From the NCBI GenBank assembly GCA_030835825.1, contig JAURRA010000030.1, forward strand, positions 1-64,000: a stretch of 64,000 bases of DNA. The letters run 5' to 3'. Below the pieces are notes generated by a model. The model searched no databases, was not told where the DNA came from, and worked only from the letters and a program-made list of their open reading frames with translations. This stretch comes from Flavobacteriaceae bacterium. GTDB lineage: Bacteria; Bacteroidota; Bacteroidia; Flavobacteriales; Flavobacteriaceae. This document shows, in pieces, positions 13,883-19,670 of the stretch (within the stretch, counting starts at the first letter, position 1; every line of letters starts with the position of its first letter). The position numbers and the translations under genes are program-made.

Positions 13883-14413
13883 TTATGATTTAAGCAGATC
13901 TTGGTAAATACTTTCTATTTTTTCCACCTTAGGTTGTATCACAAGTTGGCAGTACATTTGGTCGCGGTGGTCGTTGTAGTAGTTATCGTGCTCCGTCTCG
14001 GCCTCGTAAAAAACATCGAAGGGTGTGACTTCAGTTACAATGGGTTGTTGAAAGACCATTCTAGTGGTCAATGCTGTGATATGGTCTTCAGCTATCGTCT
14101 TTTGTGCCTCAGAAGTATAAAAGATTCCCGATCTGTATTGACTGCCCAAATCATGTCCTTGTCTATTTAGGGTGGTAGGATCATGAGTAGCAAAAAATAG
14201 TTCTAAAAGTTTTTTAAAGGAAATTAAATGGGGATCAAAGGTAATTTTAACCGCTTCGGCATGCCCAGTTCTACCCTGGCAGACCTCGCGATAAGGTGGA
14301 TTCTTGACAAAACCTCCCGTATAACCCGATTTAACCTCAAGAACGCCTTCCAAGCGCTGAAATACTGCCTCTGTACACCAAAAACAACCGTTCGCTAAAA
14401 TGGCTAACTCCAC
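13883..14413 (-). CDS. msrA: Peptide-methionine (S)-S-oxide reductase
   Basis: 176 residues. MsrA reduces methionine-S-sulfoxide in proteins. The catalytic motif GCFWCTEAVFQ places the nucleophile at Cys10, very near the N-terminus; YTGG, RTGHAEAV and the DPTTLNRQGHDLGSQYRSG stretch are the substrate-binding signatures. There is no signal peptide, so it is cytoplasmic. No MsrB domain is fused. It diverges from the PIG-L gene, and a TAAATTTG box sits 24 nt upstream of its start. Confidence 0.95.
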   Translation of the reverse strand: MELAILANGCFWCTEAVFQRLEGVLEVKSGYTGGFVKNPPYREVCQGRTGHAEAVKITFDPHLISFKKLLELFFATHDPTTLNRQGHDLGSQYRSGIFYTSEAQKTIAEDHITALTTRMVFQQPIVTEVTPFDVFYEAETEHDNYYNDHRDQMYCQLVIQPKVEKIESIYQDLLKS

Positions 14414-14502: not shown

Positions 14503-17007
14503 ATGCGGTTTTTCCAATCAGTGTTGTTCACTTTTATCGGTTTGTGCTCTTGTCAATTTATGCAATCTCAAAATCCGACACCCCAAAGTAGCGTGTCGAT
14601 TTACAAGGCACTTCAGAAACTCAACACCTTGGCCAGTGTTCTCTATGTCGCTGCCCATCCCGATGATGAAAATACCAGACTCATTTCGTACTTGTCCAAT
14701 CACAGCAATGCACGCGTAGGCTATCTCTCCCTTACCAGAGGCGATGGCGGGCAAAATCTCATTGGGTCAGAGTTACGCGAACTCCTTGGTGTTATTCGCA
14801 CCCAAGAGTTACTTGCCGCCAGACGCACAGACGGTGGTCAACAGTTTTTTACTAGAGCCAATGATTTTGGATATTCAAAGCATCCTGATGAAGCCTTTGC
14901 TATCTGGAACAAAGAGGCCATCATTAAAGACGTAGTTTGGACCATAAGAAATTTTAAACCCGATGTGATTATCAACAGATTTGACCACCGTACGCCAGGA
15001 AGCACTCATGGCCACCACACTGGATCGGCCATGGCCAGTGTAGAAGCCTTCGATTTGGCCGGGCGCGATGACTTTGCAGTTGAGCAATTGGACCTCACTG
15101 AAGTCTGGACGCCATATCGTCAATTTTTCAACACCTCCTGGTGGTTCTACGGCAGTCAAGAAAATTTCGAAAAGGCTGATAAGTCCAAGTTAGTGATGTT
15201 TGACATTGGAAGTTTTGATCCTAAAACGGGCCTATCAAACAACGAAATCGCCGCACAAGCTAGTAGTCAACACCTGTCTCAAGGCTTTGGGAGACTAAGT
15301 CAGCGTGGGAGTTCTACTGAGTACGTGGAGTTGATCAACGGACCACTACCGCAAAACAACGACTTGTTTGACGGGATTGACACCAGTTGGAATCGGGTTG
15401 AAGGGGGACGAAAAATTGGTAAGATACTCGTGGCGGTACAAGATAATTTCAACTTTCATAACCCCGCCATTCATTTGGCTCAGTTACTTGAAGCCTATCA
15501 GTTGATTTCAAAGCTCAAAGATGAGCATTGGCGTGCCATCAAACTCCACGAGATTACTCAATTGATAAAGGATTGCGCAGGCTTATATATCGACTTTAAA
15601 ACTGATACCGCTGAGGCAGTAGCTGGTGAAAATATTAACATTAACATGGAAGTGATCGCTCGAAACACCGCTGAAATACTTATCGAAGGAGCAAGTATAA
15701 ATGGCATCGGCTTATTTGAGGTTCAAAAACAAAACTTGAATCAGAACGAGGGTCTTTCGGTTAAAAGCACCTTTTCGATCCCACAAAATACACCATATTC
15801 TGTTCCCTATTGGCTCACCACGAGCGGTACTTTAGGATTATATCGAGTGGAGGACCCTACCCTAATTGGCTTACCTCAAACACCGCGGTCTCTTGTCGGC
15901 CAGGTAAATTTAACCCTATTTGGGATTCCGTTTCAGTTAGAATCTGACATCAGGTATCACCACGCTAGGCCAGATGTAGGAGAAATCTATCAGCCCTTTG
16001 AAATAGTTCCCAAAGTTGATGTAACCCTGGACAGTAAAAGCTTTCTCTTTGCGAGTTCAAAACCTCAAGAGTTGAAGCTAAAAGTCACCTCGCATGCCGA
16101 CCACTGCCAAGGTAACGCTGGACTTCGGGTGCCTGAAGGCTGGACCCTATCTCCCAGTTCACAACCTTTTCAAATTGACAATAAAGGCGGGTCTCAAATC
16201 TTAGATTTTGTCCTTTCTCCACCTGCTGAATCGTCAGAAGCCGAATTGATTGCATTTGCAAACATGAATGGGGTTGCCTTTGAGCACGAATTGGTGCGTA
16301 TAGACTATGACCATATTCCTCTTCAAACCGTTCTGAGACCCAGCCGCGCCAAGGCCGTACGATTGAATATCAAGACGGTGCCTTTAAGAATAGCCTATGT
16401 CCAAGGTGCTGGCGATGTCACCGTAGAGAGTTTAGCCAGAATAGGCTTTAATCCGGATGTCATTCAAGCCTCAGATATAACCCCTGAATTGCTTGCCAAT
16501 TACGATGTCGTAATCACTGGGGTAAGAGCTTACAATACCATGGACGCCCTCCGTTTCAAGCAAAATGACCTGTTCGACTTTGTCAAACGAGGCGGGACCA
16601 TGCTAGTTCAGTACAACGTTAGCCGAGGTATAGTTGTAGATCAACTGGCACCTGTTCCAATTGAATTGTCAAGAAATAGAGTCACCGATGAGTTTTCTCC
16701 TGTCTCATTTTTAGATCCCAATAGTCCTCTTTTATCATTCCCTAATCAATTGAGCGGGAAGGACTTCGAAGGCTGGGTACAAGAGCGTGGCTTGTATTTT
16801 CCAAATAACTGGGACGATGCCTTTAAACCCTTATTGCGCATGAATGACCCCAATGAAGCTCCCACCGATGGTAGTGTCCTCGTCAGTCAATATGGCCAAG
16901 GGCATTATATCTATACGGGTTTGAGTTTCTTTCGTCAATTTCCGGAGTCAGTGCCTGGGGCGTATCGCTTTTTCGTTAACCTGATATCCGTGGGGCAAAA
17001 CAATTAA
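14503..17007 (+). CDS. Exported PIG-L family deacetylase with large C-terminal extension
   Basis: 834 residues. A signal peptide covers about 1-23. The PIG-L/LmbE domain (about 44-290) carries the zinc motif AAHPDDEN at 50-57, LTRGDGGQN, and the distal metal-ligand segment GSTHGHHTGSA. PIG-L enzymes remove N-acetyl groups from sugar or sugar-like substrates. A beta-rich middle (about 370-600) is followed by an ThuA/glutamine-amidotransferase-like Rossmann domain (about 625-830) containing GAGDVTVESLARIGFNPD and DVVITGVRAYNT. The architecture is much larger than BshB, so a role in bacillithiol synthesis is unlikely. A membrane peptide and a symporter follow immediately, suggesting periplasmic deacetylation coupled to uptake; the substrate is unknown. 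Confidence 0.85.
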   Translation: MRFFQSVLFTFIGLCSCQFMQSQNPTPQSSVSIYKALQKLNTLASVLYVAAHPDDENTRLISYLSNHSNARVGYLSLTRGDGGQNLIGSELRELLGVIRTQELLAARRTDGGQQFFTRANDFGYSKHPDEAFAIWNKEAIIKDVVWTIRNFKPDVIINRFDHRTPGSTHGHHTGSAMASVEAFDLAGRDDFAVEQLDLTEVWTPYRQFFNTSWWFYGSQENFEKADKSKLVMFDIGSFDPKTGLSNNEIAAQASSQHLSQGFGRLSQRGSSTEYVELINGPLPQNNDLFDGIDTSWNRVEGGRKIGKILVAVQDNFNFHNPAIHLAQLLEAYQLISKLKDEHWRAIKLHEITQLIKDCAGLYIDFKTDTAEAVAGENININMEVIARNTAEILIEGASINGIGLFEVQKQNLNQNEGLSVKSTFSIPQNTPYSVPYWLTTSGTLGLYRVEDPTLIGLPQTPRSLVGQVNLTLFGIPFQLESDIRYHHARPDVGEIYQPFEIVPKVDVTLDSKSFLFASSKPQELKLKVTSHADHCQGNAGLRVPEGWTLSPSSQPFQIDNKGGSQILDFVLSPPAESSEAELIAFANMNGVAFEHELVRIDYDHIPLQTVLRPSRAKAVRLNIKTVPLRIAYVQGAGDVTVESLARIGFNPDVIQASDITPELLANYDVVITGVRAYNTMDALRFKQNDLFDFVKRGGTMLVQYNVSRGIVVDQLAPVPIELSRNRVTDEFSPVSFLDPNSPLLSFPNQLSGKDFEGWVQERGLYFPNNWDDAFKPLLRMNDPNEAPTDGSVLVSQYGQGHYIYTGLSFFRQFPESVPGAYRFFVNLISVGQNN

Positions 17008-17008
17008 T

Positions 17009-17107
17009 ATGAAACTATCACACCAAAATCTCTGGTATCTTCTTGTTCTAGGGGCCAACCTAATTTATGTTTGGATTTTTTATTTAATCTCTAAACCATG
17101 GTATTAG
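17009..17107 (+). CDS. 32-residue single-pass membrane peptide, candidate symporter accessory subunit
   Basis: ATG at 17009 starts one nucleotide after the PIG-L stop; the frame ends with TAG at 17105-17107, overlapping the symporter start by 10 nt in another frame. The peptide begins MKLSHQNLWYLLVLGAN, continues with a hydrophobic aromatic segment and ends LISKPWY: one transmembrane helix with a short positive N-terminus. Tiny subunits of this kind accompany some NSS and SSS transporters (MetS, symporter small accessory proteins). The tight packing on both sides argues for translation. Homology was not checked, so its identity as an accessory subunit is inference. Confidence 0.6.
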   Translation: MKLSHQNLWYLLVLGANLIYVWIFYLISKPWY

Positions 17108-18777
17108 TCGATTGGATAGTACTCGCAGGAACACTTGTCTTTATTGTTTCATATGGCGCTTGGCGGACTCGGAAAACCAGCTCTGTAAAAGACTATATCG
17201 GTGGCGGTCAACAAGCCAGTTGGTGGACTATTGGCCTTTCTGTTATGGCTACCCAAGCCAGTGCCATAACTTTCTTGTCCACTCCCGGGCAAGCTTTTCA
17301 CGATGGCATGGGATTCGTACAGTTCTATTTTGGCTTACCTGTCGCCATGGTTATCATTTGTGCGGTATTTATTCCCATTTACAGCAGATTAAAGGTGTTT
17401 ACTGCCTACGAATTTTTGGAAAAACGATTTGACATTAGAGTCAGAAAGTTGACTGCCTCGCTTTTCTTAATTCAGCGAGGATTGTCGGCTGGGATAACCA
17501 TTTTCGCACCGTCCATTATTTTATCAGCAGTACTCGGCTGGAACCTCACGGCCTTAAATATTTTGATTGGCTGTTTGGTTATCATTTACACCGTTTCGGG
17601 AGGAACAAAAGCAGTGAGCGTCACCCAAAAGCAACAAATGGCAGTTATTTTTACTGGTATGATATTGGCACTATTCTTTATCATTCGAGCCTTACCAGAA
17701 TCCATCAGCTTCTCTGATGCCATTGAAATTGCAAGTGCTAGTGGGAAAATGGAAATATTAAACTTTTCTTTTGACCTGAATAATCGCTACACCGTGTGGA
17801 CTGGCCTTATCGGCGGCACCTTCTTGGCACTGTCTTATTTTGGCACCGATCAAAGCCAGGTGCAACGCTATCTATCAGGAAAGTCTGTTCAGGAAATGCG
17901 CCTGGGAATGCTCTTTAACGGCTTGTTAAAAGTTCCCATGCAATTCTTCATTCTCTTTGTTGGGGTTATGGTCTTTGTGTTTTATCAATTTAACCGAGCA
18001 CCTATGCATTTTAACCCTCTATCTGAGCAACTGATCGAAAACACCCAATACGAATCAGACTATCAGACACTGAAAGAAATCTCGAAACAAAATTTTGAAA
18101 ACCGCATCAATCTTTACAGCGAGTATGAGCAATCGCCATCCGATGATCTTAGAAACAACATTGTTGCAAATCAAACTGCCGACCGAACCAATCGCGATGC
18201 AGCACGAGTGCTATTAGAGCAAGCCGCCGCATCCAAAAACACGAGCTTTGAGAGCAATGATAAAGACTATGTATTTATACATTTTATTCTAAACAACCTT
18301 CCACGCGGATTGATTGGCCTATTGTTGGCCGTAATATTATCTGCTGCCATGTCGTCCACTGCAAGCGAATTGAATGCCCTGGGCGCAACAACCGCCTTGG
18401 ATCTGTATAACACCTCCTACCCTGCGGATTCCGATCGAAAGCTGGTTAAAACCACAAAGTTGTTTACCATTGGCTGGGGCATTTTAGCCATCGGCGTTGC
18501 CTGTATGGCCTATTTAGCAGATAACCTTATTCAGCTTGTCAACATAATCGGATCAATATTCTATGGCAATGTATTGGGGATATTTCTATTGGCTTTCTTC
18601 ATCAAATGGGTCGGTAGCCGATCGGTATTGCTTGCGGCCATCATCACACAACTTATAGTCATCGTTGTATTCCGTATGGATTGGATGCCTTATTTATGGC
18701 TGAATCTACTAGGTTGTGGCTTGGTTATATGCATGGCCTTATTCATTGAGGCAATGCTACCAGACAATAAGGCATAA
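17098..18777 (+). CDS. Sodium:solute symporter (SSS family)
   Basis: 559 residues. It has many hydrophobic helices with SSS hallmarks: DYIGGGQQASWWTIGLSVMA near the N-terminus, SGGTKAVSVTQ at helix 5, the conserved SYFGTDQSQVQRYLSGKS segment, and AAMSSTASELNALGATTALD in the region that forms the Na2 site. A hydrophilic loop of about 70 residues (near 310-385), seen in other Bacteroidota SSS proteins, separates two helices. It imports an organic solute with sodium; which one is unknown. Clustering with an exported PIG-L deacetylase points to an amino sugar or related compound (inference). The terminator at 18784-18805 ends the unit. Confidence 0.9.
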   Translation: MVLVDWIVLAGTLVFIVSYGAWRTRKTSSVKDYIGGGQQASWWTIGLSVMATQASAITFLSTPGQAFHDGMGFVQFYFGLPVAMVIICAVFIPIYSRLKVFTAYEFLEKRFDIRVRKLTASLFLIQRGLSAGITIFAPSIILSAVLGWNLTALNILIGCLVIIYTVSGGTKAVSVTQKQQMAVIFTGMILALFFIIRALPESISFSDAIEIASASGKMEILNFSFDLNNRYTVWTGLIGGTFLALSYFGTDQSQVQRYLSGKSVQEMRLGMLFNGLLKVPMQFFILFVGVMVFVFYQFNRAPMHFNPLSEQLIENTQYESDYQTLKEISKQNFENRINLYSEYEQSPSDDLRNNIVANQTADRTNRDAARVLLEQAAASKNTSFESNDKDYVFIHFILNNLPRGLIGLLLAVILSAAMSSTASELNALGATTALDLYNTSYPADSDRKLVKTTKLFTIGWGILAIGVACMAYLADNLIQLVNIIGSIFYGNVLGIFLLAFFIKWVGSRSVLLAAIITQLIVIVVFRMDWMPYLWLNLLGCGLVICMALFIEAMLPDNKA

Positions 18778-18783
18778 AAAAAA

Positions 18784-18805
18784 CGCAGTTGTCTGCGCTT
18801 TTTTT
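18784..18805. terminator. Bidirectional intrinsic terminator
   Basis: CGCAG (18784-18788), loop TTGT, CTGCG (18793-18797), then C and seven T. A run of A before the left arm makes it work in both directions, serving the symporter unit (plus) and the DUF2911 gene (minus). It is the only clear intrinsic terminator I found in the window. Confidence 0.75.
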
Positions 18806-18821
18806 GTAAACCAAAACACCT

Positions 18822-19670
18822 TTAGTTTTGCCATTCTTTTAAAGAAGCCTCATTCATACGGACATAGTCCATATTACCGGCCTCTTTAGATTTTTCTAAA
18901 GATAACTTTGCCGCCTTGATAGCTCCCTTTTTGTCACCGTTGGCCATGTGTATTAGCGCTTGCTGACGCAACATATAGAATTTTGGATCGTCACCAGACA
19001 TTTCAATAGCTTTGTCAACCCATGCAGTAGCTTGATTCAAATCTTTTCCTGCATTTAAGTAATAAACAGCCGCACTGTAATAGTCGTTTAGAGTTGGTGT
19101 TGCTGATAAAACTTTATCTATACTGGCCATTACTACAGCATCAGTAGGCACATCAAAAGGAACGGCAACCCTTGTATTTTCCCATTCAATAACCAAATGA
19201 GCACCGTCATTAGTAATGTTTTCAAGACCCATATAAAATGATTCTACTGGGTCTTGCATAGCCGTTGGCTTCAATGTCATTGAGGCGGCAACCAAGGCTT
19301 GGTCCAAGGTCTTTGGCGCTCCCCAATTGTCGGTTTTCATATAGAAATAAACTTCCCAAGAGGCAGAGCCAGGCTTGGTAAATATGGAATAAGTACCGGC
19401 TGGGACTTCCTTGCCGTCAAGGGTGAAAGAAGTATCAGAAGTGAAAGTGCTATTGGCATTAGCACCAGTGCGCCAAACTTCTCCAAAAGGAACAAGTCCT
19501 CCAAAAACATTCCTACCTCTCATGGCAGGACGAGAATAAGTCAGCTTAATATTTGACAATCCAACCACCTGCTCTACAGTTGAGGCAGGACTTGGTTGGG
19601 GTGATGTGATTTGGGCGCTGAGTTGACCAGTTAATAATGCCACACAAAAGAGTAAAAGTAATTTTTTCAT
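18822..19670 (-). CDS. Exported DUF2911 protein with TPR-like C-terminus
   Basis: 282 residues. A signal peptide (MKKLLLLFCVALLTGQLSA, cleaved before QI) sends it to the periplasm. The DUF2911 domain spans about 25-185, with KLTYSRPAMRGRNVFGGLVP, GEVWRTGANANSTF and VPAGTYSIFT being characteristic. The remaining 90 residues form helical TPR-like repeats (NDYYSAAVYYLNAGKDLNQA, then FYMLRQQALIHMANGDKKGA). DUF2911 has no established function. It is a single gene with its own upstream region, which holds a perfect 9-bp inverted repeat. Confidence 0.85.
   Translation of the reverse strand: MKKLLLLFCVALLTGQLSAQITSPQPSPASTVEQVVGLSNIKLTYSRPAMRGRNVFGGLVPFGEVWRTGANANSTFTSDTSFTLDGKEVPAGTYSIFTKPGSASWEVYFYMKTDNWGAPKTLDQALVAASMTLKPTAMQDPVESFYMGLENITNDGAHLVIEWENTRVAVPFDVPTDAVVMASIDKVLSATPTLNDYYSAAVYYLNAGKDLNQATAWVDKAIEMSGDDPKFYMLRQQALIHMANGDKKGAIKAAKLSLEKSKEAGNMDYVRMNEASLKEWQN

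Follow-up and report, generated by a model that had tools for sequence, protein, structure and literature searches.

A conserved single-helix microprotein encoded beside an SSS sodium:solute symporter, a probable accessory subunit in Bacteroidota

In a Flavobacteriaceae genome, the gene of an SSS sodium:solute symporter is immediately preceded by an ORF for a membrane peptide of 32 residues, and we put forward comparative genomic evidence that this peptide is probably a dedicated accessory subunit of the adjacent transporter. On this reading, to which we assign a probability of roughly 0.8 from sequence comparison, the peptide would be a single-pass inner-membrane microprotein of N-in orientation. 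We regard it as a new family of an already known type, met here in a context that is new for it, a bacterial SSS transporter with a single-helix subunit; the family was sought within Bacteroidota.

The window, which is the whole stretch of 64,000 nucleotides analysed here, belongs to a 1.62-Mb assembly that is 95% complete. The features that bear on the peptide and its surroundings are the following:

13883 to 14413, strand opposite to PIG-L: MsrA-type PMSR gene, upstream of PIG-L
14503 to 17007, forward strand: PIG-L family protein, 834 aa, whose gene heads the unit in most relatives read
17009 to 17107, forward strand: peptide ORF, 32 aa, ATG at 17009 and stop at 17105-17107, single transmembrane helix
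17098 to 18777, forward strand: SSS sodium:solute symporter, 559 aa, the proposed partner of the peptide
18784 to 18804, forward strand: terminator-like hairpin (stem 18784-18797 plus a T run) directly 3' of the symporter, recognized by consensus match alone
18822 to 19670, reverse strand: DUF2911 protein, converging on the unit, an ordinary neighbour

Translation of 17009-17107 on the forward strand gives MKLSHQNLWYLLVLGANLIYVWIFYLISKPWY. The upstream gene carries a PIG-L domain (PF02585, E 1.6e-13) and the downstream product matches both the Pfam SSF family (PF00474, E 3.6e-36) and NCBIfam TIGR00813 (221.8 bits against a cut-off of 184). Because a hairpin follows the symporter and the PMSR gene upstream lies on the other strand, the PIG-L, peptide and SSS genes look like a single three-gene unit, with the stem at 18784-18797 as its likely end; terminator-like sites numbered 6 against 4.0 expected in shuffles. 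A sequence-only reading of the window had proposed that the small frame opens one nucleotide past the PIG-L stop, overlaps the symporter start and thereby fills an otherwise odd gap of 90 nt, and the coordinates bear this out: the PIG-L ORF ends at 17007, one base before the ATG, and the symporter begins 10 nt before the end of the peptide ORF. The gap (17008-17097) is explained by the peptide, since the spacing between PIG-L and SSS shrinks to about 0-4 nt in three Flavobacteriaceae genomes that lack it.

By every sequence test, the ORF is a real, protein-coding gene. Relatives were obtained by searching public species genomes with the symporter, and the top 80 matches, at 62-88% identity, were retained from a larger set. 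An equivalent ORF is found just 5' of the orthologous SSS gene in all 80 named relatives as well as in the window; in 78 of the relatives it encodes 31-43 aa from an ATG, and in the remaining two (L046, L066) it encodes 36 aa from a GTG. Excluding the two GTG-started sequences, the peptide alignment comprises 79 sequences; N17, Y20 and F24 do not vary in it, and conservation reaches 90% or more in the columns of W9, Y10, L14 and Y25. The W residue directly precedes Y in the window and in L006, the usual family pattern being W-x3-Y, and W9 was therefore aligned to the family W across a three-residue gap. The layout, with a short polar N-terminal tail and a helix at about residues 8-28 of the 32, matches the single hydrophobic helix with short polar ends first proposed for the frame.

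Selection on the peptide acts at the amino-acid level. Between the window and its nearest named relative, L006, there are 14.0 synonymous changes over 20.0 sites and 11.0 nonsynonymous changes over 76.0 sites (pS 0.70, pN 0.14), so that the conservation anticipated for related operons is strong both in the presence of the ORF at 80/80 loci and in a pN far below pS. The same relation holds in 3080 of 3081 peptide pairs (pooled pS 0.795, pN 0.336), with a weaker ratio than that of the window and L006 among the 195 pairs of low pS (<0.6; mean pN 0.32 against pS 0.53). The moment of conservation along the helix is greatest at 100 degrees per residue (p 0.0007, 20,000 permutations), which indicates that one helix face is kept constant. 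Mean net charge amounts to +2.1 on the N-side of the helix and +0.5 on its C-side across the 79 peptides, the N-side being the more positive in 65 of them and equal in 11, and this excess of charge suggests an N-in orientation.

The distribution of the peptide follows that of the symporter. We searched 299 Flavobacteriaceae genomes with the symporter (E<=1e-60) and with the peptide alignment (E<=0.01), scoring the top candidates in each genome. A symporter orthologue was detected in 267 genomes and a peptide match in 253, all of them among the 267; the peptide-alignment search gave no match in the 32 family genomes that lack a symporter orthologue. Of the 14 symporter-positive genomes without a peptide match, three have a symporter cut by a contig edge, eight show a diverged helix ORF at the expected position, and three show no such ORF. 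Five of the eight diverged ORFs score weakly (profile E 0.001-2.1) and one, L179, was recognized by eye only. Counting diverged ORFs, the peptide is present in 261 of the 264 family genomes in which the region upstream of the symporter could be read, and a recognizable peptide upstream of SSS is absent from three (G064, G280, G166). Among the matches listed in both searches, peptide and symporter lie on one contig and strand in 113/113 genomes and within 36 nt of each other in 112 of these (4 nt in G255), the exception being G087 at 379 nt. In the small-genome relatives L175 and L180 (genus g65) and L185 (G166), PIG-L and SSS are kept, the peptide is gone and the gap has closed; these relatives offer a comparison for a symporter working alone.

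Taken as an accessory subunit, the peptide would be made together with the symporter from the PIG-L/peptide/SSS message and would insert in the membrane as one helix. Its conserved face (Y10, L14, N17, Y20, F24 and neighbouring residues) would then pack on the outside of the symporter helix bundle, where the peptide could aid assembly or stability, or tune transport or cycling, in the way that MAP17 acts on SGLT2. That the effect is one of activation or stabilization, and not of inhibition or degradation tagging, is a guess. A peptide with the same partner and the opposite sign, that is, a small inhibitor or a degradation adaptor of the symporter resembling MgtR or SgrT, is the alternative that survives best, although we regard it as unlikely. 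Small proteins of such a kind exist for other transporters, as passages of a published survey attest (PMC10710835), and the genomic evidence gives association without sign; a shared gene unit and co-travel with few exceptions would nonetheless be more typical of a subunit than of an inhibitor that acts conditionally.

Less probable still is a role in cis, in which the small ORF would be a leader or translational coupler whose translation keeps ribosomes passing from PIG-L to the symporter and whose product is itself inert. The tightness of the junctions speaks for it, with a distance of -8 to +5 nt from PIG-L stop to peptide start in 44 of 73 loci and many peptide stops touching the SSS start, and translational coupling may well exist as an additional effect. 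Against an inert product stand the strength of residue-level conservation and its location on one helix face, together with the free variation of both spacing (-10 to 72 nt) and frame relative to SSS, all three relative frames occurring among the named loci. Purifying selection, moreover, persists in four genomes in which the peptide lies about 15 kb away from the symporter.

These four genomes (G417, G357, G372 and G346, genus g307) hold peptide and symporter 14.6-15.3 kb apart. The intervening block was read through in G417 and at its ends only in the other three. In G417 it is a 15-kb glycan-utilisation-like block on the opposite strand (L289:1797-16936), encoding PIG-L, ECF sigma, FecR, SusC-/SusD-like, MFS, ROK and PcRGLX-like proteins and an SLC13-type transporter; an opposite-strand 486-aa gene following the peptide is common to all four genomes. 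WbqC, peptide and SSS genes stand in a row in f38 relatives (L160, L161, L166, L168) and WbqC still adjoins the peptide in the split genomes, and on the basis of this conserved gene order the block was most likely inserted between the peptide and symporter genes. The peptides of the split loci remain intact, and most of the differences among them are synonymous (L269 against L270, Sd 8.0/24.5 and Nd 2.0/86.5), the closest pair showing 1.0 synonymous against 1.0 nonsynonymous change, and a second peptide was not found at the symporter ends of the split loci. Since the distant peptide stays intact under selection, the separated lineages argue for a protein acting in trans, as a subunit would, over a leader acting in cis.

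Beyond the family, the first peptide alignment matched 63 of 395 Bacteroidota genomes. It yielded 27 places outside Flavobacteriaceae, 20 of which were retrieved for reading, and at every one of these 20 an SSS gene (36-56% identity) follows directly downstream. A wider profile (A4) gave 126 matches, spread over 122 of the 395 genomes; for 112 of these matches, a symporter match lies on the same strand at a distance of -4 to 100 nt. The 14 non-adjacent matches consist of the four strong ones of genus g307, one each in G347 and G584, and eight at E 0.002-0.009; the symporter was absent near the four of these eight that were retrieved (G363, G588, G666, G678). In G347 (L273:457-890) the peptide precedes an apparent SSS start that, judged by eye, runs into a frameshift, and tblastn gave no symporter match after the peptide; the symporter is perhaps decaying there while the peptide persists. 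A peptide-like ORF in G584 (L274, L293) lies about 108 kb from the symporter, unlike the other two sampled members of genus g384 (G592, G648), which carry the peptide at the symporter, and this is perhaps a second, independent separation. G603 (L163, L164) holds two PIG-L/peptide/SSS copies with identical peptides, one of the SSS matches having an in-frame TAG.

Viewed from the symporter, 33 places in the phylum lack an adjacent peptide match, and inspection of 21 of them revealed a diverged helix ORF in place in 12, separated cases in 5, uncertain cases in 2 (G442, G517) and none in 2. The 12 diverged ORFs divide evenly between profile E 2e-7 to 1e-5 and profile E 0.0005 to 0.19, values that refer to small ORF sets. 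No recognizable peptide was present in the inspected region upstream of SSS in G474 and G456, both outside Flavobacteriaceae. As these two genomes and G064, G280 and G166 keep SSS without the peptide, the peptide is not absolutely required for the symporter.

The same survey bears on the idea that the true partner is PIG-L, or some envelope component, and that SSS is a neighbour merely through operon membership. PIG-L does lie upstream, within 4 kb, in 73 of the 80 named loci. The remaining seven, however, all from Tenacibaculum, retain peptide and SSS without it, and 11 of the 20 distant loci (ten in family f38, which belongs to another class, and L157) consist of peptide and SSS with no PIG-L match nearby. 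No peptide match occurs in the 32 SSS-less family genomes, and a PIG-L partnership is accordingly very improbable. The coupling to the symporter proposed at the outset is thus upheld over coupling to PIG-L, and the peptide is, as far as these gene neighbourhoods tell, older than Flavobacteriaceae and independent of PIG-L.

The symporter itself has SMCT1, NIS, SMVT, SiaT and SGLT2 as its nearest solved relatives by sequence comparison. A structural model was obtained with AlphaFold2 for the peptide-linker-SSS read-through of L077, using 75 of 87 natural in-frame pairs as rows (pLDDT 81.3, pTM 0.81). The peptide forms a helix at residues 12-35 of the model, with pLDDT of about 87-91 over residues 11-30. 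Foldseek and VIA-align placed the SSS part alone on SiaT, SMCT1 and NIS over its own length, with Z 38.0 over 463 residues at 2.7 A for SiaT (5nva) and Z 25-31 for SGLT1/2 chains; the aligned range runs from model positions 55-62 to 611-618, starting at the symporter's own first helix and leaving the peptide helix outside. Because SSS alone spans the SiaT/SMCT1/NIS fold, the model indicates that the symporter is a complete SSS fold without the peptide and that the peptide is a helix over and above it, supplying no part that the transporter lacks. That the peptide might be the symporter's own first helix, split off or frameshifted, is hence scarcely credible: the peptide frame does continue into the SSS frame across at least one stop in 87 of 215 pairs, but the relative frame differs among genomes and the fold is complete from its first helix. 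Equally remote is a chance ORF or a hydrophobic peptide of type I toxin-like nature, which shares the length and hydrophobicity of the peptide, given a place conserved across classes, mostly one match per genome and 112/126 phylum matches adjoining SSS. Leader peptide, PIG-L partner, split symporter and chance ORF were all rejected on conservation, neighbourhood and fold evidence.

Residue covariation between peptide and symporter is suggestive only. Mean-field DCA on 207 peptide/SSS pairs (Neff 75) ranks peptide position 28 with SSS position 220 as the top inter-protein coupling, outranked by one intra-SSS coupling. In an analysis of independent pairs on the tree, column 220 was the best of 269 (among 11 pairs, about 6 in one direction and 1 in the other; median p 0.07 by sign test), followed by SSS columns 317, 403 and 86; simulated unlinked traits on the same tree attained the column-220 value in 13 out of 45 simulations on the raw measure and in 2 out of 45 on the per-pair measure. 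From SSS topology, positions 220, 317 and 403 would lie on the outer side of the transporter. At residues ~299-395, the symporter of the window (17098-18777) has a polar stretch of about 90 residues before the 'NNLPRGLIG' helix, which is helical in the orthologue model, is highly variable among relatives and may be the source of the extra length over SiaT (559 against 496 aa). The substrate can be guessed from the fold and the PIG-L neighbour to be a sugar or an amino-sugar. The genome has further SSS genes (L002, L003, L005), upstream of which an ORF with the motif was not found; L002 and L003 have hydrophobic, TTG-started ORFs of 25 and 24 aa, respectively, both without the motif and the former located at the SSS start.

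Comparison of 98 family members (79 peptides plus 19 distant ones) with Pfam and NCBIfam gave no match above chance. The most frequent weak matches among the 79 were DUF2976 in Pfam (18 members, best E 0.0036; others in 1-3 members) and TIGR03745, an ICE membrane protein, in NCBIfam (12 members, best E 0.0031; others in 1-4 members). Single members weakly matched an MPN207a-type PTS accessory protein (E 0.027), Collectrin (E 0.081) and OSTbeta (E 0.19). We read all five identities as probable chance matches of transmembrane composition.

Among known systems, MetS/MaAIMP_sms is the small subunit of the MetPS-type NSS importer, a sodium symporter of LeuT fold; it is very short, has one TM helix and is encoded next to its transporter. 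DUF4212, DUF485/YjcH and DUF997/YhdT are small two-TM membrane proteins encoded beside SSS genes. The former (PF16951) is similarly short and single-TM, but its transporter is an NSS and not an SSS protein; the latter are larger than the peptide and have two helices, PF13937 (DUF4212) alone covering 79 positions. PF16951 was not among the families matched by the 79 + 19 peptides at E<=10, nor did it match at the window locus in a search of the source genome, and in a control it matched 7 of 14 control genomes, C. glutamicum among them, with one over the cut-off. DUF4212 likewise matched none of the 98 members and gave no match at the locus. The initial comparison of the peptide to the small accessory subunits of NSS and SSS transporters therefore stands as an analogy and does not extend to family membership, no member matching MaAIMP_sms or DUF4212.

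A closer functional parallel is MAP17 (PDZK1IP1), which is also a single-TM accessory protein on an SSS-fold transporter, human SGLT2/SGLT1. Passages of PMC10803289 report that one MAP17 helix contacts TM13 of SGLT2, that co-expression strongly raises SGLT2 activity and that MAP17 has additional extracellular and intracellular regions, in contrast to the bacterial peptide of 31-43 aa. The gene of the bacterial peptide, unlike that of MAP17, adjoins the transporter gene, and the likeness proposed here is one of function, no sequence link having emerged. Other small proteins that bind and modulate transporters, namely AcrZ, MgtS, MgtU and SgrT, act on classes other than SSS, and the sole case labelled SSS in passages of the survey that describes them is SbtA with the PII protein SbtB (PMC10710835).

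We lean, with somewhat better than even confidence, towards a broader proposal, according to which Bacteroidota possess an ancient, nearly obligate two-subunit SSS made up of a SiaT/SGLT-like transporter and a single helix of 30-40 residues with the core W-x3-Y-x2-V-x10-F-x3-[TM], a bacterial counterpart of SGLT-MAP17 that is absent from the scanned libraries. If this holds, single-helix auxiliary subunits arose at least twice on the SSS fold. A subunit role for the peptide would mean that sodium symporters of a class widespread in bacteria possess a second subunit that has stayed hidden, and that a symporter expressed or solved alone could fail or mislead, as the precedent of SGLT2 and MAP17 illustrates. 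It would also provide a simple bacterial system for the study of single-helix action on SSS, with the split and subunit-less lineages as built-in comparisons.

Among the papers listed by searches of the open-access literature, judged by title and start of abstract, none dealt with such a peptide. The phrase 'symporter small accessory protein', which we take to be an NCBIfam name, likewise finds no paper in that literature. Bulk catalogues may contain members without a name, and RefSeq may list them as 'hypothetical protein' entries; a global small-protein catalogue (PMC11364881) could well hold sequences of the family.
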